DNA from: Odiellus spinosus
Lineage: Eukaryota; Arthropoda; Arachnida; Opiliones; Phalangiidae
Assembly (NCBI GenBank): GCA_963920705.1
Contig: OY987233.1
Coordinates: 6,934,001 to 6,998,000, forward strand
Direction: 5' to 3'
Length of the DNA stretch: 64,000 bases
Part shown: piece by piece, positions 5,188-45,300 of the stretch
How the letters are laid out: every line of letters begins with the position of its first letter
Position numbering within the stretch: position 1 is the stretch's first letter
Notes under the pieces: model-generated
The model's database searches: none
What the model saw: the letters and a program-made list of their open reading frames with translations, nothing else
What the model was told of the DNA's origin: nothing
Program-made: the position numbers and the translations under genes

Positions 5188-5882
5188 TGCGAGGTTTGGA
5201 TACTTTCTGTCACACCATTAAGAGATTGAATCGAGGCAAGGGGCTTTGTTTCAGAAACCTAGGTATATAAATTTAGCCTTATGAGCTTTAGCAGAGAAAA
5301 ATAGGAGTACATGTTGGTCTAATTCGCTGGCTGCAATCTTCTAGCCACCATTGACATTGGTATCAAAGAACCAGCGGTTTAACGATCTAACAATACGATC
5401 TTCCATTCTATACATGGATGTTTTTACGTCTCCTCCCCATCCGTAAATACTTGCGATACATTTTTTAATAATCATTTAATATTGTGGAAAAGAGAGACTC
5501 ACACATTTTTGAAGTTCTTGGATTTTAATCTCATTTTTGACTAAGCCTCTACCAGGGTTTCAATATAATATTTGGCAGACCTGTAAAAAAGACAAATATA
5601 TCACAAATTAATTAGATTTCTATGATTATTAATAAAACTACCAATTTCACTTATTTCATTACATTTGATAAGTTAGTAGTTTTAGTAACTTAGTACATGA
5701 ACAGTAAGCCTTTTATTTCGAAGTCGAATCACGTGTGATTTGAGATTGACTGAATTATAATTTTCCTCACCTTTAATGAGGTCTTCAATGATGATTTACC
5801 ACAGAAAAAGTTTACATTAATATATTTAAGCATTAATTTAATTCTTATTAATGATTTTTGCACACATTCTTTACTTTCCAAG
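5188..5882. promoter_or_regulatory. Upstream region of the forkhead gene
   Basis: About 700 bases between the forkhead start codon and the left end of the fold-back element. It should hold the 5' UTR and promoter, but I can point to no certain TATA box or initiator. AT-rich, no ORF of note. Confidence 0.35.
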
Positions 5883-6228
5883 GGGTGGGCCTAATTGTCG
5901 CATATTTTATTGGCAAACCATTTTGGCAAACTTGTCGCAAGTTTGCCCTGGACCCTATTTGACGCAAATTTTTTTTCCCTGCAAACTTGTCGCAAGTTTG
6001 CCATAACCCTAATTGACGCAAATTTTTTTTCCCTGCAAACCTGGCGCAAATTTTAGCCATGCCAAAACCAATATAAATACTAAAGAAATGGCGTTTATTG
6101 ATAAGTCTAAACAAGTTTCTTCTACAATGATTTATTTAATTATGTATTTATTTCAAGAATATTATTAATAGTTATGGTGCAGGTTACAACAGGAAACATT
6201 TTAGGCCATTTTTTATGGTACCAAAATT
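5883..6228. repeat. Outer unique segment of the left arm
   Basis: Single-copy terminal part of the inverted repeat, matched base for base over most of its length by 18290-18634. It contains an internal direct repeat of about 56 bp (GCAAACTTGTCGCAAGTTTG... starting near 5926 and 5982), itself partly palindromic. Long frames across it are identical on opposite strands at the two ends and are by-products of the inverted repeat, not genes. Confidence 0.85.
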
Positions 6229-9200
6229 TGTTTTTACCACGAAATTCGTTGGCGCATGTTTTTTGAATAAGGGCAAACCACTTTCAAAAACCGGTTTTTC
6301 TGCAAGAAATTGGTAAGTTACCACCTGGATAATTTTTCTTAGGTACATACTAATATATTCTTACCCATTCCAGCAGTTTTTAGCACGAAATTCGTTGGCG
6401 CATGTTTTTTGAATAAGGGCAAACCACTTTCAAAAACCGGTTTTTTTGCAAGAAATTGGTAAGTTACCACCTGGATAATTTTTCTTAGGTACATACTAAT
6501 ATATTCTTACCCATTCCAGCAGTTTTTAGCACGAAATTCGTTGGCGCATGTTTTTTGAATAAGGGCAAACCACTTTCAAAAACCGGTTTTTTTGCAAGAA
6601 ATTGGTAAGTTACCACCTGGATAATTTTTCTTAGGTACATACTAATATATTCTTACCCATTCCAGCAGTTTTTAGCACGAAATTCGTTGGCGCATGTTTT
6701 TTGAATAAGGGCAAACCACTTTCAAAAACCGGTTTTTCTGCAAGAAATTGGTAAGTTACCACCTGGATAATTTTTCTTAGGTACATACTAATATATTCTT
6801 ACCCATTCCAGCAGTTTTTAGCACGAAATTCGTTGGCGCATGTTTTTTGAATAAGGGCAAACCACTTTCAAAAACCGGTTTTTTTGCAAGAAATTGGTAA
6901 GTTACCACCTGGATAATTTTTCTTAGGTACATACTAATATATTCTTACCCATTCCAGCAGTTTTTAGCACGAAATTCGTTGGCGCATGTTTTTTGAATAA
7001 GGGCAAACCACTTTCAAAAACCGGTTTTTTTGCAAGAAATTGGTAAGTTACCACCTGGATAATTTTTCTTAGGTACATACTAATATATTCTTACCCATTC
7101 CAGCAGTTTTTAGCACGAAATTCGTTGGCGCATGTTTTTTGAATAAGGGCAAACCACTTTCAAAAACCGGTTTTTCTGCAAGAAATTGGTAAGTTACCAC
7201 CTGGATAATTTTTCTTAGGTACATACTAATATATTCTTACCCATTCCAGCAGTTTTTAGCACGAAATTCGTTGGCGCATGTTTTTTGAATAAGGGCAAAC
7301 CACTTTCAAAAACCGGTTTTTTTGCAAGAAATTGGTAAGTTACCACCTGGATAATTTTTCTTAGGTACATACTAATATATTCTTACCCATTCCAGCAGTT
7401 TTTAGCACGAAATTCGTTGGCGCATGTTTTTTGAATAAGGGCAAACCACTTTCAAAAACCGGTTTTTTTGCAAGAAATTGGTAAGTTACCACCTGGATAA
7501 TTTTTCTTAGGTACATACTAATATATTCTTACCCATTCCAGCAGTTTTTAGCACGAAATTCGTTGGCGCATGTTTTTTGAATAAGGGCAAACCACTTTCA
7601 AAAACCGGTTTTTCTGCAAGAAATTGGTAAGTTACCACCTGGAACATTTTTCTTAGGTACATACTAATATATTCTTACCTATTCCAGCAGTTTTTAGCAC
7701 GAAATTCGTTGGCGCATGTTTTTTGAATAAGGGCAAACCACTTTCAAAAACCGGTTTTTTTGCAAGAAATTGGTAAGTTACCACCTGGATAATTTTTCTT
7801 AGGTACATACTAATATATTCTTACCCATTCCAGCAGTTTTTAGCACGAAATTCGTTGGCGCATGTTTTTTGAATAAGGGCAAACCACTTTCAAAAACCGG
7901 TTTTTCTGCAAGAAATTGGTAAGTTACCACCTGGATAATTTTTCTTAGGTACATACTAATATATTCTTACCCATTCCAGCAGTTTTTAGCACGAAATTCG
8001 TTGGCGCATGTTTTTTGAATAAGGGCAAACCACTTTCAAAAACCGGTTTTTCTGCAAGAAATTGGTAAGTTACCACCTGGATAATTTTTCTTAGGTACAT
8101 ACTAATATATTCTTACCTATTCCAGCAGTTTTTAGCACGAAATTCGTTGGCGCATGTTTTTTGAATAAGGGCAAACCACTTTCAAAAACCGGTTTTTTTG
8201 CAAGAAATTGGTAAGTTACCACCTGGATAATTTTTCTTAGGTACATACTAATATATTCTTACCCATTCCAGCAGTTTTTAGCACGAAATTCGTTGGCGCA
8301 TGTTTTTTGAATAAGGGCAAACCACTTTCAAAAACCGGTTTTTCTGCAAGAAATTGGTAAGTTACCACCTGGATAATTTTTCTTAGGTACATACTAATAT
8401 ATTCTTACCCATTCCAGCAGTTTTTAGCACGAAATTCGTTGGCGCATGTTTTTTGAATAAGGGCAAACCACTTTCAAAAACCGGTTTTTCTGCAAGAAAT
8501 TGGTAAGTTACCACCTGGATAATTTTTCTTAGGTACATACTAATATATTCTTACCCATTCCAGCAGTTTTTAGCACGAAATTCGTTGGCGCATGTTTTTT
8601 GAATAAGGGCAAACCACTTTCAAAAACCGGTTTTTCTGCAAGAAATTGGTAAGTTACCACCTGGATAATTTTTCTTAGGTACATACTAATATATTCTTAC
8701 CTATTCCAGCAGTTTTTAGCACGAAATTCGTTGGCGCATGTTTTTTGAATAAGGGCAAACCACTTTCAAAAACCGGTTTTTTTGCAAGAAATTGGTAAGT
8801 TACCACCTGGATAATTTTTCTTAGGTACATACTAATATATTCTTACCCATTCCAGCAGTTTTTAGCACGAAATTCGTTGGCGCATGTTTTTTGAATAAGG
8901 GCAAACCACTTTCAAAAACCGGTTTTTCTGCAAGAAATTGGTAAGTTACCACCTGGATAATTTTTCTTAGGTACATACTAATATATTCTTACCCATTCCA
9001 GCAGTTTTTAGCACGAAATTCGTTGGCGCATGTTTTTTGAATAAGGGCAAACCACTTTCAAAAACCGGTTTTTTTTGCAAGAAATTGGTAAGTTACCACC
9101 TGGATAATTTTTCTTAGGTACATACTAATATATTCTTACCCATTCCAGCAGTTTTTAGCACGAAATTCGTTGGCGCATGTTTTTTGAATAAGGGCAAACC

Positions 9201-12060
9201 ACTTTCAAAAACCGGTTTTTTTGCAAGAAATTGGTAAGTTACCACCTGGATAATTTTTCTTAGGTACATACTAATATATTCTTACCCATTCCAGCAGTTT
9301 TTAGCACGAAATTCGTTGGCGCATGTTTTTTGAATAAGGGCAAACCACTTTCAAAAACCGGTTTTTCTGCAAGAAATTGGTAAGTTACCACCTGGATAAT
9401 TTTTCTTAGGTACATACTAATATATTCTTACCCATTCCAGCAGTTTTTAGCACGAAATTCGTTGGCGCATGTTTTTTGAATAAGGGCAAACCACTTTCAA
9501 AAACCGGTTTTTTTGCAAGAAATTGGTAAGTTACCACCTGGATAATTTTTCTTAGGTACATACTAATATATTCTTACCCATTCCAGCAGTTTTTAGCACG
9601 AAATTCGTTGGCGCATGTTTTTTGAATAAGGGCAAACCACTTTCAAAAACCGGTTTTTCTGCAAGAAATTGGTAAGTTACCACCTGGATAATTTTTCTTA
9701 GGTACATACTAATATATCCTTACCCATTCCAGCCGTTTTTAACACTAAATTCGTTGGCGCAAGTTTTTTGAATAAGGGCAAACCACTTTCAAAAACCGGT
9801 TTTTCTGCAAGAAATTGGTAAGTTACCACCTGGATAATTTTTCTTAGGTACATACTAATATATCCTTACCCATTCCAGCCGTTTTTAACACTAAATTCGT
9901 TGGCGCAAGTTTTTTGAATAAGGGCAAACCACTTTCAAAAACCGGTTTTTCTGCAAGAAATTGGTAAGTTACCACCTGGATAATTTTTCTTAGGTACATA
10001 CTAATATATTCTTACCCATTCCAGCAGTTTTTAGCACGAAATTCGTTGGCGCATGTTTTTTGAATAAGGGCAAACCACTTTCAAAAACCGGTTTTTCTGC
10101 AAGAAATTGGTAAGTTACCACCTGGATAATTTTTCTTAGGTACATACTAATATATTCTTACCCATTCCAGCAGTTTTTAGCACGAAATTCGTTGGCGCAT
10201 GTTTTTTGAATAAGGGCAAACCACTTTCAAAAACCGGTTTTTTTGCAAGAAATTGGTAAGTTACCACCTGGATAATTTTTCTTAGGTACATACTAATATA
10301 TTCTTACCCATTCCAGCAGTTTTTAGCACGAAATTCGTTGGCGCATGTTTTTTGAATAAGGGCAAACCACTTTCAAAAACCGGTTTTTCTGCAAGAAATT
10401 GGTAAGTTACCACCTGGATAATTTTTCTTAGGTACATACTAATATATTCTTACCCATTCCAGCAGTTTTTAGCACGAAATTCGTTGGCGCATGTTTTTTG
10501 AATAAGGGCAAACCACTTTCAAAAACCGGTTTTTTTTGCGAGAAATTGGTAAGTTACCACCTGGATAATTTTTCTTAGGTACATACTAATATATTCTTAC
10601 CCATTCCAGCAGTTTTTAGCACGAAATTCGTTGGCGCATGTTTTTTGAATAAGGGCAAACCACTTTCAAAAACCGGTTTTTTTGCAAGAAATTGGTAAGT
10701 TACCACCTGGATAATTTTTCTTAGGTACATACTAATATATTCTTACCCATTCCAGCAGTTTTTAGCACGAAATTCGTTGGCGCATGTTTTTTGAATAAGG
10801 GCAAACCACTTTCAAAAACCGGTTTTTTTGCAAGAAATTGGTAAGTTACCACCTGGATAATTTTTCTTAGGTACATACTAATATATTCTTACCCATTCCA
10901 GCAGTTTTTAGCACGAAATTCGTTGGCGCATGTTTTTTGAATAAGGGCAAACCACTTTCAAAAACCGGTTTTTCTGCAAGAAATTGGTAAGTTACCACCT
11001 GGATAATTTTTCTTAGGTACATACTAATATATTCTTACCCATTCCAGCAGTTTTTAGCACGAAATTCGTTGGCGCATGTTTTTTGAATAAGGGCAAACCA
11101 CTTTCAAAAACCGTTTTTTTTTGCGAGAAATTGGTAAGTTACCACCTGGATAATTTTTCTTAGGTACATACTAATATATTCTTACCCATTCCAGCAGTTT
11201 TTAGCACGAAATTCGTTGGCGCATGTTTTTTGAATAAGGGCAAACCACTTTCAAAAACCGGTTTTTTTGCAAGAAATTGGTAAGTTACCACCTGGATAAT
11301 TTTTCTTAGGTACATACTAATATACTCTTACCCATTCCAGCAGTTTTTAGCACGAAATTCGTTGGCGCATGTTTTTTGAATAAGGGCAAACCACTTTCAA
11401 AAACCGGTTTTTCTGCAAGAAATTGGTAAGTTACCACCTGGATAATTTTTCTTAGGTACATACTAATATATTCTTACCCATTCCAGCAGTTTTTAGCACG
11501 AAATTCGTTGGCGCATGTTTTTTGAATAAGGGCAAACCACTTTCAAAAACCGGTTTTTCTGCAAGAAATTGGTAAGTTACCACCTGGATAATTTTTCTTA
11601 GGTACATACTAATATATTCTTACCCATTCCAGCAGTTTTTAGCACGAAATTCGTTGGCGCATGTTTTTTGAATAAGGGCAAACCACTTTCAAAAACCGGT
11701 TTTTTTGCAAGAAATTGGTAAGTTACCACCTGGATAATTTTTCTTAGGTACATACTAATATATTCTTACCCATTCCAGCAGTTTTTAGCACGAAATTCGT
11801 TGGCGCATGTTTTTTGAATAAGGGCAAACCACTTTCAAAAACCGGTTTTTTTGCAAGAAATTGGTAAGTTACCACCTGGATAATTTTTCTTAGGTACATA
11901 CTAATATATCCTTACCCATTCCAGCCGTTTTTAACACTAAATTCGTTGGCGCAAGTTTTTTGAATAAGGGCAAACCACTTTCAAAAACCGGTTTTTCTGC
12001 AAGAAATTGGTAAGTTACCACCTGGATAATTTTTCTTAGGTACATACTAATATATTCTTA
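6229..12060 (+). repeat. Tandem array of about 40 monomers of 146 bp (left arm)
   Basis: Near-identical head-to-tail monomers. Successive acceptor-like CCAG sites fall at 6373, 6519 and 6665, fixing the period at 146 bp, with 1-2 bp shifts only in a T run. Each monomer is an 85 nt segment (from CAGTTTTTAGCACGAAATTC to GCAAGAAATTG) followed by a 61 nt segment running GTAAGTTACC...CATTCCAG. A sub-variant (TATCCTT, AACACTAAATT, GCGCAAG) recurs near 9716, 9862 and 11916 and once in the right arm near 17095, showing that monomers have moved between positions and arms. Confidence 0.95.
6313..6373 (+). other. Intron-like 61 nt segment, first of about 46 in the left arm
   Basis: The segment has every signal of a minimal spliceosomal intron: donor ATTG|GTAAGT, a CATACTAATA branch-like site about 23 nt from the end, a pyrimidine-rich CTTACCCATTC and acceptor CAG|CAG. 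The same 61 nt length recurs in each following monomer (6459-6519 and so on). Host introns next door are 53-69 nt (for example SNX6: 53, 57, 62, 63, 65, 68, 69), so this is a native-sized intron. Whether it is transcribed or spliced cannot be read from DNA. Confidence 0.6.
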
Positions 12061-13145
12061 CCCTTTCCAGCAGTTTTTAGCCCGAAAATATTTTGCGCGA
12101 GTTTTTTAAATGAGGGCAAACCATTTTTACGCGAGTTTTTTAAAAGAGGGCAAACCACTTTCAAAAATCGGTTTTTCTGCAAGAAATTGGTAAGTTACTA
12201 CTCTGATAATTTTTACTAGTTGTCTACTAATTTATTCTTACCATTTCCAGCAGTTTTTAGGCCGAAATTATTTTGCGCAAATTTTTTGAATAAGGGCAAA
12301 CCATTTTTACGCGAGTTTTTTAAAAGAGGGCAAACCACTTTCAAAAATCGGTTTTTCTGCAAGAAATTGGTAAGTTACCACCCTGATAATTTTTATTAGT
12401 TACAAACTAATTTATTCTTACCATTTCCAGCAGTTTTTAGCCCGAAAATATTTTGCGCGAGTTTTTTAAATGAGGGCAAACCATTTTTACGCGAGTTTTT
12501 TAAAACAGGGCAAACCACTTTCAAAATTCGGTTTTTCTGCAAGAAATTGGTAAGTTACCACTCTGATAATTTTTACTAGTTGTCTACTAATTTATTCTTA
12601 CCATTTCCAGCAGTTTTTAGGCCGAAATTATTTTGCGCAAATTTTTTGAATAAGGGCAAACCATTTTTACGCGAGTTTTTTAAAAGAGGGCAAACCACTT
12701 TCAAAAATCGGTTTTTCTGCAAGAAATTGGTAAGTTACCACCCTGATAATTTTTATTAGTTACAAACTAATTCATTCTTACCATTTCCAGCAGTTTTTAG
12801 CCCGAAAATATTTTGCGCGAGTTTTTTAAATGAGGGCAAACCATTTTTACGCGAGTTTTTTAAAAGAGGGCAAACCACTTTCAAAAATCGGTTTTTCTGC
12901 AAGAAATTGGTAAGTTACCACCCTGATAATTTTTACTAGTTGTCTACTAATATATTCTTACCATTTCCAGCAGTTTTTAGGCCGAAATTATTTTGCGCAA
13001 ATTTTTTGAATAAGGGCAAACAATTTTTACGCGAGTTTTTTAAAAGAGGGCAAACCACTTTCAAAAATCGGTTTTTCTGCAAGAAATTGGTAAGTTACCA
13101 CCCTGATAATTTTTACTAGTTGTCTACTAATTTATTCTTACCATT
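12061..13145 (+). repeat. 180 bp monomers with 360 bp higher-order period (left arm, inner)
   Basis: Six monomers with acceptor sites exactly 180 bp apart. The extra 34 bp relative to the 146 bp type is an internal duplication of the GGGCAAACCA...TTTTTTAAA part. Monomers alternate between two kinds (CCCGAAAATA...TTACAAACTAAT and GCCGAAATTA...TGTCTACTAAT), giving a 360 bp higher-order unit. The 61 nt intron-like part keeps its length, GTAAGT, ACTAAT and TTTCCAG despite many other substitutions. Confidence 0.9.
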
Positions 13146-13502
13146 ACAATAGATGGTTATATAAAATGGGAAAATGGGAATATCTGTCCCAACCATGAAA
13201 AAGCCCCACTTATGTGGAAAAGTTAAAAATTAACTTTTTTTTTGGTTGAACTTGGTTCCAAGGTTGAGAAAAAGTATAGGATTTTCCATTTTATAATATC
13301 ATCTATTCTATATTTATTCTAAAATAACATTTTACACAATTTCATTATTCAATCAGTTTCAATTAATTTCGAAAAGTAGTTATTTACCGATAGCCTCTTC
13401 AACATTGACCAGAAACTGTAGCAGACTATGCAACTGTTTTCCACGAGGGGTCGGGCATTCAAGGAAATCCCGTACGCTACCCGCTAAATTCAATTTTAGA
13501 AC
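13146..13502. repeat. Inner unique segment of the left arm
   Basis: Non-tandem sequence mirrored by 13955-14309 in the right arm with few differences (for example an indel near the ACCGATAGCC / GGCTATCGGT pair). It is the part of the palindrome closest to the loop. No gene recognised. Confidence 0.85.
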
Positions 13503-13954
13503 TTTTTTTGAAATCTGTTAAGAAATGGCCGGTAGTCTCTTTAAGTTATTCCTATTTTACGCTTTACGAGAATCAATGACCTTTCAACTACATCACTTCA
13601 CGACTAAGCCTCAGTAACCAGTGCCACACTAATGAAACAAATAGTATAAACTTATGACCATAGTCAAATTTTTACTCTATTTGCCTTCTACAGGGGAGCG
13701 GATCACAAGGACTCTGTGGAAAATTTCGAGCTGATTGTTCCCAATAAATTCTCACGATACAGCTTGCCCTTCTCGTATGACACTAGTGGGTTTGAACATG
13801 GGTTTTCTCGAGGTTCTCTTAACGGTACCCCTTTCTAACTCCGTTGATTTCGTGATTTCATTAGTGATTTAATGATTTCGGATTTTTTTATCAGATTTCA
13901 AAATCAGCAAAATTTACTTTGATTTCGTGCGGGATTATTGATTTTGATTTTAGA
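13503..13954. other. Central loop of the fold-back element
   Basis: 452 bases not matched by an inverted copy. It contains short GATTTC/GATTTT iterations at 13848-13950 and no ORF of meaningful size. This is where a fold-back element would carry a transposase if it had one; none is present. Confidence 0.8.
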
Positions 13955-14309
13955 GTTCTAAAATTGAATTTAGCGGGTAGCGTACGGGATTTCCTTGAAT
14001 GCCCGACCCCTCGTGGAAAACAGTTGCATAGTCTGCTACAGTTTCTGGTCAATGTTGAAGAGGCTATCGGTATATACTTTTCGAAATTAATTGAAACTGA
14101 TTGAATAATGAAATTGTGTAAAATGTTATTTTAGAATAAATATAGAATAGATGATATTATAAAATGGAAAATCCTATACTTTTTCTCAACCTTGGAACCA
14201 AGTTCAACCAAAAAAAAAGTTAATTTTTAACTTTTCCACATAAGTGGGGCTTTTTCATGGTTGGGACAGATATTCCCATTTTCCCATTTTATATAACTAT
14301 CTATTGTAA

Positions 14310-16550
14310 TGGTAAGAATAAATTAGTAGACAACTAGTAAAAATTATCAGGGTGGTAACTTACCAATTTCTTGCAGAAAAACCGATTTTTGAAAGTGGTT
14401 TGCCCTCTTTTAAAAAACTCGCGTAAAAATGGTTTGCCCTTATTCAAAAAATTTGGGCAAAATAATTTCGGCCTAAAAACTGCTGGAAATGGTAAGAATA
14501 AATTAGTAGACAACTAGTAAAAATTATCAGGGTGGTAACTTACCAATTTCTTGCAGAAAAACCGATTTTTGAAAGTGGTTTGCCCTGTTTTAAAAAACTC
14601 ACGTAAAAATGGTTTGCCCTCATTTAAAAAACTCGCGCAAAATATTTTCGGGCTAAAAACTGCTGGAAATGGTAAGAATAAATTAGTTTGTAACTAATAA
14701 AAATTATCAGGGTGGTAACTTACCAATTTCTTGCAGAAAAACCGATTTTTGAAAGTGGTTTGCCCTCTTTTAAAATCTCGCGTAAAAATGGTTTGCCCTC
14801 ATTCAAAAAAGTTTCGCAAAACAATTTCGGCCTAAAAACTGCTGGAAATGGTAAGAATAAATTAGTTTGTAACTAATAAAAATTATGAGGGTGGTAACTT
14901 ACCAATTTCTTGCAGAAAAACGGATTTTTGAAAGTGGTTTGCCCTCATTTAAAAAACTCGCGCAAAATATTTTCGGGCTAAAAACTGCTGGAAATGGTAA
15001 GAATAAATTAGTAGACAACTAATAAAAATTATCAGGGTGTTAACTTACCAATTTCTTGCAGAAAAACCGATTTTTGAAAGTGGTTTGCCCTCTTTTAAAA
15101 AACTCGCGTAAAAATGGTTTGCCCTTATTCAAAAAATTTGGGCAAAATAATTTCGGCCTAAAAACTGCTGGAAATGGTAAGAATAAATTAGTAGACAACT
15201 AGTAAAAATTATCAGAGTGGTAACTTACCAATTTCTTGCAGAAAAACCGATTTTTGAAAGTGGTTTGCCCTGTTTTAAAAAACTCACGTAAAAATGGTTT
15301 GCCCTCATTTAAAAAACTCGCGCAAAATATTTTCGGGCTAAAAACTGCTGGAAATGGTAAGAATAAATTAGTTTGTAACTAATAAAAATTATCAGGGTGG
15401 TAACTTACCAATTTCTTGCAGAAAAACCGATTTTTGAAAGTGGTTTGCCCTCTTTTAAAATCTCGCGTAAAAATGGTTTGCCCTCATTCAAAAAAGTTTC
15501 GCAAAACAATTTCGGCCTAAAAACTGCTGGAAATGGTAAGAATAAATTAGTTTGTAACTAATAAAAATTATGAGGGTGGTAACTTACCAATTTCTTGCAG
15601 AAAAACGGATTTTTGAAAGTGGTTTGCCCTCATTTAAAAAACTCGCGCAAAATATTTTCGGGCTAAAAACTGCTGGAAATGGTAAGAATAAATTAGTAGA
15701 CAACTAATAAAAATTATCAGGGTGTTAACTTACCAATTTCTTGCAGAAAAACCGATTTTTGAAAGTGGTTTGCCCTCTTTTAAAAAACTCGCGTAAAAAT
15801 GGTTTGCCCTTATTCAAAAAATTTGGGCAAAATAATTTCGGCCTAAAAACTGCTGGAAATGGTAAGAATAAATTAGTAGACAACTAGTAAAAATTATCAG
15901 AGTGGTAACTTACCAATTTCTTGCAGAAAAACCGATTTTTGAAAGTGGTTTGCCCTGTTTTAAAAAACTCACGTAAAAATGGTTTGCCCTCATTTAAAAA
16001 ACTCGCGCAAAATATTTTCGGGCTAAAAACTGCTGGAAATGGTAAGAATAAATTAGTTTGTAACTAATAAAAATTATCAGGGTGGTAACTTACCAATTTC
16101 TTGCAGAAAAACCGATTTTTGAAAGTGGTTTGCCCTCTTTTAAAATCTCGCGTAAAAATGGTTTGCCCTCATTCAAAAAAGTTTCGCAAAACAATTTCGG
16201 CCTAAAAACTGCTGGAAATGGTAAGAATAAATTAGTTTGTAACTAATAAAAATTATGAGGGTGGAAACTTACCAATTTCTTGCAGAAAAACGGATTTTTG
16301 AAAGTGGTTTGCCCTCATTTAAAAAACTCGCGCAAAATATTTTCGGGCTAAAAACTGCTGGAAATGGTAAGAATAAATTAGTAGACAACTAATAAAAATT
16401 ATCAGGGTGTTAACTTACCAATTTCTTGCAGAAAAACCGATTTTTGAAAGTGGTTTGCCCTCTTTTAAAAAACTCGCGTAAAAATGGTTTGCCCTCATTC
16501 AAAAAATTTGCGCAAAATAATTTCGGGCTAAAAACTGCTGGAAATGGTAA
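14310..16550 (-). repeat. Right-arm inner array with 685 bp higher-order repeat
   Basis: Complement-oriented 180-type monomers and shorter derivatives. A marker (AATTTGGGCAAAATAATTTCG) recurs with exactly 685 bp spacing (14455, 15140, 15825), showing a multi-monomer unit amplified about three times. The left arm uses a 360 bp unit instead, so the arms have been amplified independently. Confidence 0.88.
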
Positions 16551-18289
16551 GAATAAATTAGTATGTACCTAAGAAAAATTATCCAGGTGGTAACTTACCA
16601 ATTTCTTGCAAAAAAACCGGTTTTTGAAAGTGGTTTGCCCTTATTCAAAAAACATGCGCCAACGAATTTCGTGCTAAAAACTGCTGGAATGGGTAAGAAT
16701 ATATTAGTATGTACCTAAGAAAAATTATCCAGGTGGTAACTTACCAATTTCTTGCAAAAAAACCGGTTTTTGAAAGTGGTTTGCCCTTATTCAAAAAACA
16801 TGCGCCAACGAATTTCGTGCTAAAAACTGCTGGAATGGGTAAGAATATATTAGTATGTACCTAAGAAAAATTATCCAGGTGGTAACTTACCAATTTCTTG
16901 CAGAAAAACCGGTTTTTGAAAGTGGTTTGCCCTTATTCAAAAAACATGCGCCAACGAATTTCGTGCTAAAAACTGCTGGAATGGGTAAGAATATATTAGT
17001 ATGTACCTAAGAAAAATTATCCAGGTGGTAACTTACCAATTTCTTGCAGAAAAACCGGTTTTTGAAAGTGGTTTGCCCTTATTCAAAAAACTTGCGCCAA
17101 CGAATTTAGTGTTAAAAACGGCTGGAATGGGTAAGGATATATTAGTATGTACCTAAGAAAAATTATCCAGGTGGTAACTTACCAATTTCTTGCAGAAAAA
17201 CCGGTTTTTGAAAGTGGTTTGCCCTTATTCAAAAAACATGCGCCAACGAATTTCGTGCTAAAAACTGCTGGAATGGGTAAGAATATATTAGTATGTACCT
17301 AAGAAAAATTATCCAGGTGGTAACTTACCAATTTCTTGCAAAAAAACCGGTTTTTGAAAGTGGTTTGCCCTTATTCAAAAAACATGCGCCAACGAATTTC
17401 GTGCTAAAAACTGCTGGAATGGGTAAGAATATATTAGTATGTACCTAAGAAAAATTATCCAGGTGGTAACTTACCAATTTCTTGCAAAAAAACCGGTTTT
17501 TGAAAGTGGTTTGCCCTTATTCAAAAAACATGCGCCAACGAATTTCGTGCTAAAAACTGCTGGAATGGGTAAGAATATATTAGTATGTACCTAAGAAAAA
17601 TTATCCAGGTGGTAACTTACCAATTTCTTGCAGAAAAACCGGTTTTTGAAAGTGGTTTGCCCTTATTCAAAAAACATGCGCCAACGAATTTCGTGCTAAA
17701 AACTGCTGGAATGGGTAAGAATATATTAGTATGTACCTAAGAAAAATTATCCAGGTGGTAACTTACCAATTTCTTGCAAAAAAACCGGTTTTTGAAAGTG
17801 GTTTGCCCTTATTCAAAAAACATGCGCCAACGAATTTCGTGCTAAAAACTGCTGGAATGGGTAAGAATATATTAGTATGTACCTAAGAAAAATTATCCAG
17901 GTGGTAACTTACCAATTTCTTGCAGAAAAACCGGTTTTTGAAAGTGGTTTGCCCTTATTCAAAAAACATGCGCCAACGAATTTCGTGCTAAAAACTGCTG
18001 GAATGGGTAAGAATATATTAGTATGTACCTAAGAAAAATTATCCAGGTGGTAACTTACCAATTTCTTGCAAAAAAACCGGTTTTTGAAAGTGGTTTGCCC
18101 TTATTCAAAAAACATGCGCCAACGAATTTCGTGCTAAAAACTGCTGGTATGGGTAAGAATATATTAGTATGTACCTAAGAAAAATTATCCAGGTGGTAAC
18201 TTACCAATTTCTTGCAGAAAAACCGGTTTTTGAAAGTGGTTTGCCCTTATTCAAAAAACATGCGCCAACGAATTTCGTGGTAAAAACAA
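16551..18289 (-). repeat. Right-arm array of about 12 monomers of 146 bp
   Basis: Same monomer as 6229-12060 in reverse complement. Read on the plus strand each unit offers ATGG|GTAAGA ... TTTCTTGCAG|, the reverse intron-like segment. Units alternate irregularly between CTTGCAG and CTTGCAA, so only some keep the AG. Confidence 0.93.
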
Positions 18290-18634
18290 ATTTTGGTACC
18301 ATAAAAAATGGCCTAAAATGTTTCCTGTTGTAACCTGCACCATAACTATTAATAATATTCTTGAAATAAATACATAATTAAATAAATCATTGTAGAAGAA
18401 ACTTGTTTAGACTTATCAATAAACGCCATTTCTTTAGTATTTATATTGGTTTTGGCATGGCTAAAATTTGCGCCAGGTTTGCAGGGAAAAAAAATTTGCG
18501 TCAATTAGGGTTATGGCAAACTTGCGACAAGTTTGCAGGGAAAAAAAATTTGCGTCAAATAGGGTCCAGGGCAAACTTGCGACAAGTTTGCCAAAATGGT
18601 TTGCCAATAAAATATGCGACAATTAGGCCCACCC
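18290..18634. repeat. Outer unique segment of the right arm
   Basis: Inverted copy of 5883-6228, ending GGCCCACCC and followed by the TTTCCAAG duplication. It ends 475 bases before the LSM3 start codon. Confidence 0.85.
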
Positions 18635-18642
18635 TTTCCAAG

Positions 18643-39300: not shown

Positions 39301-42300
39301 ATGACCACGCACTACTACAATTTGGTTCTTTAAGTATCAAAATTCAAGTGATTAATAACCAAACTTTGCTACCATATGGCTCACAATATTATTTCTTATT
39401 AATTAAAAGACGGATACTTCATGGCGGTTATTAGAACTTTTTATATGATATGGCTCACAAGTAAGTAATTGAACCCTCCAATAACCACACTGTGCTACCA
39501 TATGATTCTGTGATAAGAGAAAAACTATTAACCACGCTCTACTACCATACAGAGTGGTTCAATATCTTATACGGGGGGATAAAATTAACATTGGAGGCAG
39601 CTAATCAAATTAATTTTTCAAAAATCTCGCACATGAGTTTAAAGAAAATTAATTAGCTTTACACACACTCAATAGATATTTTATCCCTCCATAAAAGCTA
39701 CAGTATTGAGTTTTTTTATAAGAATCACACTGCATAGTTTCGTGGTTATTAATTTAAAATGTCAAATTCATAAGTATGCAACTAGTATCTGTGGTTATTG
39801 AGAGTCAAATTAGTAGCCACGCTCTGCGACCATCTAATTTTGTTTTTTAGTTATTTTTCACACCGTTTTCTATTTCTCTATCAAGGGAAAACCTAACATT
39901 TCCCCGCTTAAAGTTTTGTAAGAGCTCTCAGAAGATTTTTACGTACATAATGCTTTAAAATAAGGTAAGCTACAACAATTATACATACTTATCTGCCAAA
40001 ACAATCCTCGTTTTCGTAACATTTTCGATGGTAAATTTGGTTTTTCCGTCTTTTCCAGCTATTCTTCCAATGGCTCTGGCTAAATGTTCACCCTTCAAGG
40101 GTTTTACTGGTAACAAAAAAGATTATATATCAGATGGGGATAGAAGAAGATGGACATTTTCTGAATTTAGGATATTTTAAGAATTAAAATAGGAACTTTT
40201 CAGTATCTTAAGTAGCTGGTGGGAGCCCCTTTTCTGCTGTCTATCTTTCAGGGCTCCCAGAGCATAGCCCAAAAAAATTATAGGTATTATAGGTTTTAAA
40301 TGCCAAAAATATAGGTCCAAAAATATCCATTTATAGGACTTTTTATAGGTTTTTAGAGTAAAAAAAATAGGGGTTTTATAGGTAGGTTAGGCTGACATGT
40401 AATGCAACATAGGTTCTTTAGCCTCTAGACCTGTCCTTCTGCCTTTCTTTGGCACTACTAGCTACTCACGCCCTCTCTTGAAAGTCTAATAAAATAGAGT
40501 AATAATTTCCAGTGACCTAGGAGAGGAAACGTTTCTGCCACAGCTTTGGTTTTTGCGAACATTTGCACATTTTCAAGCAAAATTTTTATAGTTATATGGA
40601 TCATTCATTTCGAATTTTATCAGCGAAATTTAACAAATAACCCAAAATATAGGTATTGTACGTTTTTATAGGATCACTTCAGAATTATAGGTAATTATAG
40701 GTGGTTTGGGAGCCCTGAGTGCCTAAAATTGTGAAGGCATGCATCGAATCTTCTTTACATGGGTTTCAATGAGAAATATCCTAAAAATTGAAGATTCCCC
40801 ATTTTTGATGTAACTACTTCTGGTTGAAACTAATCATATGACGTCATTCCTCACTATTTACAGTACGCGTGTTAAAAGCTATCCATAAATCAGTCTATCC
40901 AGAACTATGTTCTGTCCAAAATTGTGAAGGCATGCATCGAATCTTCTTTACATGGGTTTCAATGACAAATATCCTTATAATTGAAGCTTCCTAATTTTTG
41001 ATGTAACTACTTCTGGTTAAAACTAATCATATGACGTCATTCCTCACTATTTACAGTACGCGTGTTAAAAGCTATCCATAAATCAGTCAATCCAGAATTA
41101 CGTTCTGTCCAAAATTGTGAGGGAATGCATCGAATCTTCTTTACGTGGGTTTCAATTACAAATATCCTAATAATTGAAGATTCCTAATTTTTGACGTAAC
41201 TACTTCTGGTTAAAACTAATCATATGACGTCATTCCTCACTATTTACAGTACGCGTATTAAAAGCTATCCATAAATCAGTCTATCCAGAGCTATGTTCTG
41301 TCCAAAATTGTGAAGGCATACATCGAATCTTCTTTACATGGGTTTCAATGAAAAATATCCTAATAATTGAAGCTTCCTAATTCTTGATGTAACTTCTTCT
41401 GGTTAAAACTAATCATATGACGTCATTCCTCACTATTTACAGTACGCGTGTTAAAAGCTATCCATAAATCAGTCTATCCAGAACTATGTTCTGTCCAAAA
41501 TTGTGAAGGCATGCATCGAATCTTCTTTACATGGGTTTCAATGACAAATATCCTAATAATTGAAGCTTCCTAATTTTTGATGTAACTACTTCTGGTTAAA
41601 ACAAATCATATGACGTCATTCCTCACTATTTACAGTACGCGTGTTAAAAGCTATCCATAAATCAGTCTATCCAGAACTATGTTCTGTCCAAAATTGTGAA
41701 GGCATGCATCGAATCTTCTTTACATCCCTTACCGAAAAAAGTTAGTCTTAAAAGGTCCTGGGGAAGTCTTTCGGGTGTCTTATATAGTCTTAAGAGGTCT
41801 TGGAGAAGCCTTTCATTGTGTCAAGAAGCCTTGGAGAAGTCGTAAAGACTTCCCCAAGAGTATTATAGTGTTCTTGAGGACCTCTTCAAATCAGACAAAC
41901 TTTTTTCGGTAAGGGATGGGTTTCAATGACAAATATCCTAATAATTGAAGCTTTCTAATTTTTGATGTAACTACTTCTGGTTAAAACTAATCATATGACG
42001 TCATTCCTCTCTATTTACAGTATGCGTGTTAAAAGTAATCCATAAATCAGTCTATCCAGAACTATGTTCTGTCCAAAATTGTAATGGCATGCATTGAATC
42101 TTTTTTACATGGGTTTCAATGAGAAATATCCTAAAAATTGAAGATTCCCAATTTTTGATGTAATTACTTCTGGTTAAAACTAATCATATGACGTCATTCC
42201 TCACTATTTACAGTACGCGTGTTAAAAGCTATCCATAAATCTGTCTATCCAGAATTATGTTCTGTCCAAAATTGTGAAGGAATGCATCGAATCTTCTTAC

Positions 42301-45300
42301 TTTGGTTTCAATGACAAATATCCTCATAATTGAAGCTGCCTAATTTTTGATGTAACAACTTCTGGTTAAAACTAATCATATGACGTCATTCTTCACTATT
42401 TACAGTACGCGTGTTAAAAGTTATCCATAAATCCGCCTATCCAGAACTATGTTCTGTCCAAAAATGTAATGGCATGCATAGAATCTTCTTTCCATGGGTT
42501 TCAATGAGAAATATCCTAATAATTGAAGATTCCTAATTTTTGATGTAACTTCTTCTGGTTAAAACTAATCATATGACGTCATTCCTCACTATTTACAGTA
42601 CGCGTGTTAAAAGTTATCCATAAATCAGTCTATCCAGAATTATGTTCTGTCCAAAAAATGTAATGGCATGCATCGAATCATGGAACTAATCAACTAAGGG
42701 ACGGTTCACAGGCAAGGAAATTGGAAGAATGTTCGATGGCAACCCACCCTAGCGGAATCTAGGTTTATTACCGGAATAGCGAATTGAAAAGTGATTCAAT
42801 TTTTTAGGAGGGGGGAGGAAATTTTTTTTTTTTTTATTTCATGTGTAGTCTGCTCATGGTCTGCTTTTGATTTAGAAAGAGTTAGTATAAACGCATATCT
42901 TCGGTCTCACCATACTTCTAATCAAAATATAAAGTTAAAATAATACCAAGTAACTTATAATTATATTGCTTAACTCACTTACCTTTATTTATATTACCCA
43001 ACGGGCCAACGGCTGCATCAATTTTTAAAAAACTTAAGCCTAGCCTAGCAGACGATTTTTAAAAGAAGATTACGTATATTAGAAAATAAAACTGCTTGCA
43101 GGTGGCGTTATAAGCCTCTCGAATATCCGGCCTGAAGCACCAAATTCAGTGGGGGGGAGGGGGTTTTTAAAAGGAGGGAGGGTTTGGTTTGCCACTGAAC
43201 TTTCTTCAAGGAGACTAAGGCAAAGTCTATGGGTGCGAACCGTCCCTTAGTTGATTAGTTCCATGATCGAATCTTCTTTACATGGGTTTCAATGAGAAAT
43301 ATCCTAATAACTGAAGATTCCTAATTTTTGATGTAACTACTTTTGGTTAAAACTAATCACATGACGTCATTCCTCACTATTTACAGTACCCGCGTCAAAA
43401 GTTATCTATAAATCCGTCTATCCAGAATTATGTTCCAGGGCTCCCAGTGCATAGCCAAAAAACATTGTATTATAGGTTTTAAAAGCCAAAATCTAGGTTA
43501 TTTGTAGGTCCAAAAATATCAATTTAGGACTTTTTATAGTTTTTTAGTGCCAAAAAATATGGGTTTGGCTGAAATGTAATGCAATATAGGTTCTATAGCC
43601 TCTAGACCCGTCGTCCCTCTGCCTTTCTTTGGCACTACTTGCTACTCACGCCCCTTCTCGAAAGTCTACCTAACCTCTAATAAAATAGAGCAATAATTAC
43701 CAGTGACCTAGGAGAGGAAACCTTTCTGCCACAGCTTTGGTTTTTGCGAACATTTGCACTTTTTCAAGCAAAATTTTAATAGTTATATGGATCATTCATT
43801 TCGAATTTTATCAGCGAAATTTAACAAATCACCCAAGAAATAGGTATTATAGGATAAAAAGTGAAATTATAGGTTTTCATAGGATCACTTCAGAATTATA
43901 GTTAATTATAGGTAATAAAGGTGGTCTGGGAGCCCTGATATTTTAGGAAAGCTGTTTATTAATATATGAATTGATCAAGCTTACCATCCGTGACCTCAAA
44001 AGATTCAAGGAACAACTCATCTAATCGTAGAAGAGCCAAAGCATCCTGAAAGCAGTGAAATTAAACATTACACATGTAAACCAGTATTAAAGAAAAAAAG
44101 GCAACCCAACAAAGTGATTTTTTTATGGTTTAAACATGCCTAATGAACCATTAAAAAAATTACAAACAATTATTAAACTAGAAATAAATTTATAGCTTAC
44201 CCGAAAAATTGGCTTAGCTGGATTCATGGAGATCCTAAATTTCTTCACAGCGACCAATGAGCAAAGACCCATTGTTAAGGCAAGATCTCCATGAGACTTC
44301 CAATACCATTCGATTGGTCACTGACCCTTCAATGCGAAGAAATTCAGGATCTCCATGAGTCCAGCTAAGCCAAATTTCCGGGTAAGTTTTAAATTGATTT
44401 CTAGGTTAATATTTCTTTTGTATATCTTTTAACTAGTAGATTTGGCTTATTTATACGGTAAAGAATCTATAAAAAAAACGTTGTTGGGTTGCATTCTCCC
44501 TTAAAAGGCGGTTTTAGTTCCTTAGAGACTCCCAATGATCAAACTCTCGATACTTTGCGGGTCTATACAAAACTATGTCTTTGGTCCATTGAAGAACATT
44601 ACTTACATCTACATCAAAGCCTAACGTGAATGCTTTAACAAAATCAGCAGCTTTTTGCAAGTTTCCAATATCTTCCGTCGCTTTACTCGTCTAAGAGTTT
44701 TTAAAATATAAGTTTGTACAGATTTGAAAAGAAGATTAATCATTCTTGATATGAAAGGGCTTACTCGAATTTCAATCATTCTGGTTTTCAAATTGAAACG
44801 AATTTGCAAATGCAAATGTTCAACAACAGGTGTAAAGATTTTCATCCAGTTTTCTTTAAGGGGCGTATATCTGTGGGCTGGCACTGGAATCTTCCTCATT
44901 TCAACTGACCCTTCCTATTAAACAACACCTTTAAACTAACCAGTTTTAAAAAAATTTTAAAATATTTTTTTAAATTAATTTACGAGACTGCTACTTCGTG
45001 GTTGTGAAAAACCATTTTTCAAATAAACGTTTCTGTAGAGCTTTTGGATGTATTAGTCCCCTTACAAAAAAAGTTAGTCTTAAGAGGTCTTGGGGAAGTC
45101 TTTCATTGCGTCACTAACAATTTTGCAGTGTTCTTGAGGACCTCTTCAGATCAGACCAACTTTTTTTGGTACGGGGTATATGCATTTTATCTGGAGGGAA
45201 TTTGGAGGGTAAGCTCAAGACGCTCGATCCTTCTTCGGCAATATCAAAGGTATATACAATGCCTCTCGGCTAGACAAAACTCTGACTACAAGTGTAATCT

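Follow-up and report, generated by a model that had tools for sequence, protein, structure and literature searches.

Organization of the locus

The window, a stretch of 64,000 nucleotides of Odiellus spinosus DNA (C11:6934001-6998000 in the 443-Mb assembly), contains the host genes SNX6, BTBD7, PNO1, RDH13 and LSm3 and, at 6230-13145, a long tandem array. This array is one arm of a single foldback-type DNA transposon spanning 5883-18634, which sits outside any recognised gene of the unannotated genome. The nearest named proteins to SNX6 of the window are those of ticks and spiders (Ixodes, 83%), and unnamed transcripts reach up to 90%. The features of the element are listed below.

5875-5882, left target-site duplication (TSD) TTTCCAAG; the 8-bp rule is also seen in two other insertions
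5883-6229, + strand, left terminal domain, start GGGTGGGCCTAATTGTCGCA, with short GGCAAAC and GTCGCAA motifs
6230-13145, + strand, left arm of tandem monomers of 146 (147) and 180 nt with 46 inward GTAAGT donors
6313-6373, + strand, first 61-nt intron-shaped cassette (GTAAGT...ACTAAT...CCAG), recurring every 146, 147 or 180 nt
13146-13503, + strand, left half (358 nt) of an inner inverted domain, 98.3% identical to 13954-14307 inverted
13504-13953, no strand, unpaired centre of about 450 nt
13954-14307, - strand, right half of the inner inverted domain
14308-18287, - strand, right arm, mirrored, with 25 donors on the - strand
18288-18634, - strand, right terminal domain
18635-18642, right target-site duplication TTTCCAAG

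Left and right terminal domains are 100% identical over 347 nt, and the left half of the inner inverted domain is 100% identical in the C5 copy described below. The inverted arms are long and composed of internal tandem repeats, the structure by which foldback elements are recognized. The same cassette occurs on the - strand of the right arm (25 donors), a point that the sequence-only reading of this DNA had not stressed, and the intron-shaped units point inward from both element ends.

The inner part of the right arm (14426-16600) consists of a 685-nt higher-order unit (146+179+180+180) repeated three times, which is absent from the left arm, so that the arms evolve partly independently. The inward-facing string TATAAATA at 6072-6079 of the terminal domain is a possible promoter, although at this base composition strings of the kind are frequent; scanning the domain for sigma-70 promoters has no meaning for animal DNA.

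Arm monomers and the intron-shaped cassette

The period of the left arm is 146 nt and switches to 180 nt from about 11950-12000. Its 45 complete units comprise 36 of 146, three of 147 and six of 180 nt, and these lengths are unchanged when the units are cut at an anchor that lies outside the cassette; units with a broken donor were thus not hidden by fusion with a neighbour. What distinguishes the 180-nt from the 146-nt units is an extra copy of a 34-nt motif, located outside the cassette.

An intron-like 61-nt segment had been claimed for every monomer, in about 46 consecutive copies, and both statements stand: 46 GTAAGT donors lie on the + strand of the left arm, and the cassette (GTAAGT, ACTAAT, an AG-free pyrimidine tract and CAG) is present in 69/69 complete units of both arms, the innermost unit, which ends ..CTTACCATTACAATAG, being without CCAG. 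ACTAAT begins 25 nt before the cassette end and CAG lies at position 61, with no AG between them; 12 of 15 bases of the tract are pyrimidines in 141 of 146 rows. All 145 anchor-aligned cassettes from the window and three other insertions are 61 nt long with GTAAGT and a YAG end (144 CAG, one TAG), and none has an AG between branch and acceptor. These 145 were taken from 246 loose matches to an exon anchor; the 101 dropped were mostly an exon look-alike motif, and four innermost units together with a handful of unrelated sites made up the rest. The units of an arm are amplified copies, and the 46 therefore count as one or two cases.

Two other arrays of the window, used as controls, contain no GTAAGT cassette and one GTRAG cassette. 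The latter lies on the - strand in one copy of a 193-bp tandem repeat (about 10 copies, 40725-42679), which also has an acceptor-like ACTAAT...TTTACAG stretch.

Other copies in the genome

The same ends and arms were found at C6:18394666-18401968 and C5:15591661-15599632. In all three copies read at both ends, the element ends GGGTGGGCC...GGCCCACCC are flanked by 8-bp target duplications (TTTCCAAG, CTCTCACG and CCGCCGAT), and the family is mobile and young. The fold-back structure proposed from sequence alone is thus borne out by the inverted arms, with mobility via 8-bp TSDs in 3/3 copies in addition. Further arrays are located on C2 (21.53 and 30.35 Mb), C4 (2.49, 3.44 and 5.71 Mb), C8 (5.85-5.86 Mb) and C183. 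The genome search for the monomer that had been suggested thereby returned arrays at at least 10 places of the 443-Mb assembly among the matches listed. A random genome sample of 202 kb contained no match to monomer or terminal domain and resembled the core at a single place, over 34 nt at 85% identity.

Some places carry terminal sequence in other arrangements. Within C4:3464802-4208849 the first 171 nt of the terminal inverted repeat (TIR; 98% identical) occur, with 40 of 117 candidates scored, at no fewer than 32 places, many of them spaced by about 17.5 kb; 22 lie on the - strand above 3.68 Mb, nine on the + strand at 3.49-3.66 Mb and one on the - strand at 3.46 Mb. The exact 33-nt monomer pattern is absent between these ends among the matches listed, and the region looks like a large tandem array with one TIR end per unit. 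Two inward TIR ends 52 kb apart on C8 (5903636 and 5955897) may belong to one very large relative or to two distinct copies. On C183 (903.8-932.7 kb) two arms about 25 kb apart, with no domain of a Mutator-like element (MULE) inside, are possibly a larger relative or two copies.

Coding content and classification

No open reading frame (ORF) of at least 100 aa is present in the arms or centre, and an ORF of 110 aa lies partly in the right terminal domain and partly in its flank. A Pfam search with this ORF and five of the 24 ORFs of at least 30 aa in and around the core gave no match above the cut-off; below it, these six ORFs gave two weak matches, TILa (E 0.006) and PP_M1 (E 0.06). Given the lack of ORFs of this size in arms and centre and of Pfam matches over the cut-off, the copy in the window is very probably nonautonomous. 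The spliced exon chain was considered as a protein-coding sequence and ruled out, since it has stops in each frame. An Rfam scan of the window gave nothing at gathering scores, and a 21-mer had no exact match in viral contigs. In RNA folding the 146-nt monomer (z -0.5) and its cassette (z -0.4) were no stabler than shuffled sequences; the 180-type cassette was stabler (z -2.2).

Elements of the hAT superfamily have 8-bp target duplications resembling nTnnnnAn and TIRs beginning with CA. By these terminal features the element does not fit hAT, as its TIR starts with GGG and one of its three target duplications agrees. MULEs are defined by long TIRs and TSDs of 8-10 bp (PMC5225508, as far as accessible), and the long TIRs and 8-bp TSD of the element agree with this definition of the ends. 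Of 72 genomic PF10551 matches, none coincides with any of the ten array places, and no full-length or autonomous relative with the same ends was found there. The element was therefore not assigned to MULE: its ends fit, yet the array places have no MULE domain.

Splice-like signals compared with host introns

Fifteen host introns were mapped in the window, 12 of SNX6 and one each of BTBD7, PNO1 and RDH13, those of SNX6 and BTBD7 by tblastn to relatives and those of PNO1 and RDH13 by reading frames; the LSm3 intron was excluded. As had been claimed from SNX6 and RDH13, the cassette has the size of real introns of the window, of which 11/15 measure 53-75 nt (the others 107, 370, 478 and 757 nt). 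It shows the features of a U2-type intron (GT-AG ends, branch-like site, AG-free tract and host-like length). Scored with a matrix made from the host introns, it reaches 11.9 (146 type) and 13.0 (180 type), compared with a leave-one-out median of 12.0 for the host introns themselves, and thus resembles an ordinary host intron.

Composition alone often produces such scores, and here a competing explanation enters: an intron-like string in an A+T-rich monomer may have arisen by chance and been amplified with the arm, without being meaningfully spliced. We regard this as a serious possibility, of somewhat less than even probability. Host introns are so degenerate that on one strand 466/2000 dinucleotide shuffles of the monomer (23%) and 359/2000 window pieces (18%) reach the cassette score; on either strand 603/2000 shuffles and 680/2000 window pieces do so. 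Against chance speaks the rarity of the strict consensus (GTAAGT, branch-like motif, pyrimidine tract and YAG), found in 0.53% (one strand) or 1.35% (either strand) of 6000 window pieces of 146 nt and likewise in about 0.5% of shuffles per strand; with the donor relaxed to GTRAG the window pieces rise to 3.95% (one strand) and 9.55% (either strand). The host matrix is small (15 introns) and has no branch term, and the strict rule is post hoc, so that these composition controls do not settle the intron question. The sequence-only reading had wanted the segments to outscore shuffled monomers under a host splice model; the typical host score agrees with it, but with 466/2000 shuffles equal the comparison by this small matrix comes close to refuting it.

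The reverse strand of the monomer also carries an intron-like string, a weaker one of 65 nt that starts with GTAAGA and ends with TTGCAG, and its presence favours a chance origin. One of its acceptor bases varies (C in 43 units, T in 26), which leaves it intact in only 43/69, versus 69/69 for the sense cassette. By its sequence variation the 65-nt string behaves like a neutral look-alike and provides a contrast for the sense cassette.

No intron-less junction was found in the window with up to 3 mismatches allowed. A joined-exon query gave 579 matches in the genome (23 of 26 candidate stretches scored); about 150, listed best first, are each a single exon, and none is an intron-less copy. A DNA transposon has no RNA stage, and the lack of intron-less copies therefore neither proves nor disproves splicing.

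Conservation of the signals

Changes at 16 signal columns (GTAAGT, ACTAAT and CCAG) and at all others were inferred by parsimony, using a tree of the distinct monomers. Taken over four insertions, with 144 monomers in all (69 from the window, 12 from C183, 34 from C6 and 29 from C5), there were 118 changes in 146 columns, two of them in the 16 signal columns versus 12.9 expected, the lowest of the 146 circular placements. As few changes occur in 0.17% of random 16-column sets and 0.42% of random 6+6+4 blocks. The rest of the cassette had 45 changes in 45 columns (1.00 per column) and the exon part 71 in 85 (0.84); taken whole, the cassette is thus not frozen. One signal change turns ACTAAT into ACTAAA and the other CCAG into CTAG; they preserve CTAA and the YAG end and, judged by sequence, leave usable-looking signals. 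Joint conservation of the three signals and the nature of both changes argue against chance. Taken singly, two of the three are unremarkable, which favours chance: blocks of equal length with as few changes number 6/146 for GTAAGT, which alone stands out, 19/146 for ACTAAT and 40/146 for CCAG.

Within the window, with units cut outside the cassette, the signals show 0 changes versus 6.7 expected, with 4/146 placements as low; with the exon G before the donor added, the figures are 0 versus 7.5 and 1/146. Placements as low number 5 (left arm), 8 (right arm), 28 (146-type) and 16 (180-type) of 146, the test having little power within either length group alone. Counting invariant columns with flanking bases, 17/19 are constant (6/146 placements). 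Gaps occur in no alignment column inside the cassette, and indels outside it give unit lengths of 145, 147, 149, 178, 179 and 181 nt.

Across the genome, old copies included, the donor hexamer is changed in 20/497 flanked matches and a neighbouring exon hexamer in 46/523 (the exact 33-mer has 477 matches), with a Fisher p of 0.002 that assumes independent units, which these are not. Three of the 20 changed donors lie in two short arrays, two at C2:30.35 Mb and one at C4:5.709 Mb, among 100 matches listed; such copies with broken donors again favour chance, under which the low signal change would be sampling noise combined with a choice, by the reader, of motifs that do not vary. Since that reader could see the constancy of the signal columns when naming them, the test is not fully blind, and tandem monomers are homogenised and hence not independent in these counts.

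Palindromes and shared motifs

The constant strings might instead be putative protein-binding sites of a transposase or host factor, as in Galileo, a foldback-like element of the P superfamily in Drosophila whose arm tandem repeats carry transposase-binding sites (PMC3688188, accessible part). For the splice-like strings we hold this to be improbable. In its favour, the donor sits within the palindrome TGGTAAGTTACCA, an inverted partner exists for the branch motif, and the 146-nt monomer is enriched in palindromes (7/500 shuffles have as many), unlike the 180-nt monomer (130/500). GGCAAAC is likewise common to terminal domains and arms, occurring, with both strands counted, four times per terminal domain, 87 times in the arms and twice elsewhere in the window. 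On the other side, donor half and branch never change in the 69 window units, while their symmetric partners vary (3/5 columns of the donor's palindromic half and 3/6 of the branch's inverted partner, the partners being self-chosen), a pattern that splicing would fit better than symmetric binding. The exon-like part is another matter: by the sharing of GGCAAAC and the parallels with Galileo and Tetris, it may well consist of putative binding sites. Local alignment of terminal domain and monomer indicates weak sharing (at best 8/300 shuffles equal).

Interpretation

We put at about even the reading that the element is a nonautonomous foldback transposon with a splice-competent arm monomer, the signals of which were partly constrained. 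The intron claim of the sequence-only reading is plausible by its consensus signals, host-like size and less frequently changed signals; what weakens it are the 23% of shuffles that score equally and the lack of any intron-less copy among those listed. The cassette could be spliced, and weak selection may have maintained its signals during formation of the young copies. The spliced product would join ..AAGAAATTG to CAGTTTTTAG.

As the element is palindromic, the first arm is in intron-sense orientation for any transcript that enters from either flank or is initiated within a terminal domain. The spliceosome might then excise introns one by one, or join an early donor to a late acceptor and so delete most of the arm. 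Many equivalent donors and acceptors allow such skipping, and arm length would thus matter little in RNA. After splicing, read-through transcripts would carry a shorter arm, as would the 5' leader of the transposase mRNA of a full-length relative, and the long RNA hairpin would become imperfect. The further proposal, that serial functional introns splice any entering transcript along the first arm as a selected splicing-based tolerance device, is a rather unlikely one.

A different origin would be that of an introner source, with the cassette also existing as real introns of host genes, seeded from or into the element. Some known introners have TIRs, TSDs and both splice sites (PMC9860276, accessible part), and host introns are short. 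Exact cassette-flank matches, however, lie in arrays of the family (among about 100 listed of up to 769), and no isolated genic copy was seen among the matches listed; we judge this origin very improbable.

If the cassettes are spliced, the element would join two fields, foldback transposon arms and transposon-borne introns. It would offer work on exon skipping and intron gain a natural series of near-identical introns whose copy number is known, and would suggest how arms of several kilobases are tolerated in transcripts. If they are not, the family nevertheless stands as a young and mobile foldback whose arms resemble a satellite.

Comparison with known systems

The limited open-access literature covered, accessible in part, contains foldbacks with tandem arms as well as introners. 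Galileo, like the element described here, has long inverted arms with internal tandem repeats; the accessible text mentions no intron-shaped monomer, and the present element differs in its 8-bp TSDs and in having no known transposase (PMC3688188). Tetris with TIR-220 of Drosophila virilis is likewise an apparently nonautonomous foldback with a tandem monomer in each arm. Its monomer of about 220 bp can expand into satellite arrays, and its repeats have been suggested to derive from its terminal domain; unlike here, no intron signals are described in the accessible part of that source (PMC4079207). Tm1, a Mutator/Foldback element of root-knot nematodes, and animal MULEs such as Muta1 share composite or long TIRs and TSDs of 8-10 bp, whereas the repeats of Tm1 measure about 14 bp and no MULE domain was found in the copies of the present element (PMC3169594 and PMC5225508, each in part).

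Introners were reported from 175 of 3,325 genomes and, like the present element, combine DNA-transposon features with splice signals. An introner creates an intron at its genic insertion site, whereas here dozens of intron-shaped units stand in tandem within one transposon (PMC9860276, accessible part). The sequence-only reading knew of no foldback with intron-shaped arm repeats, and none appears in this literature either. Within that scope, the architecture is already known from Galileo and Tetris, and the intron-shaped monomer is the new part.
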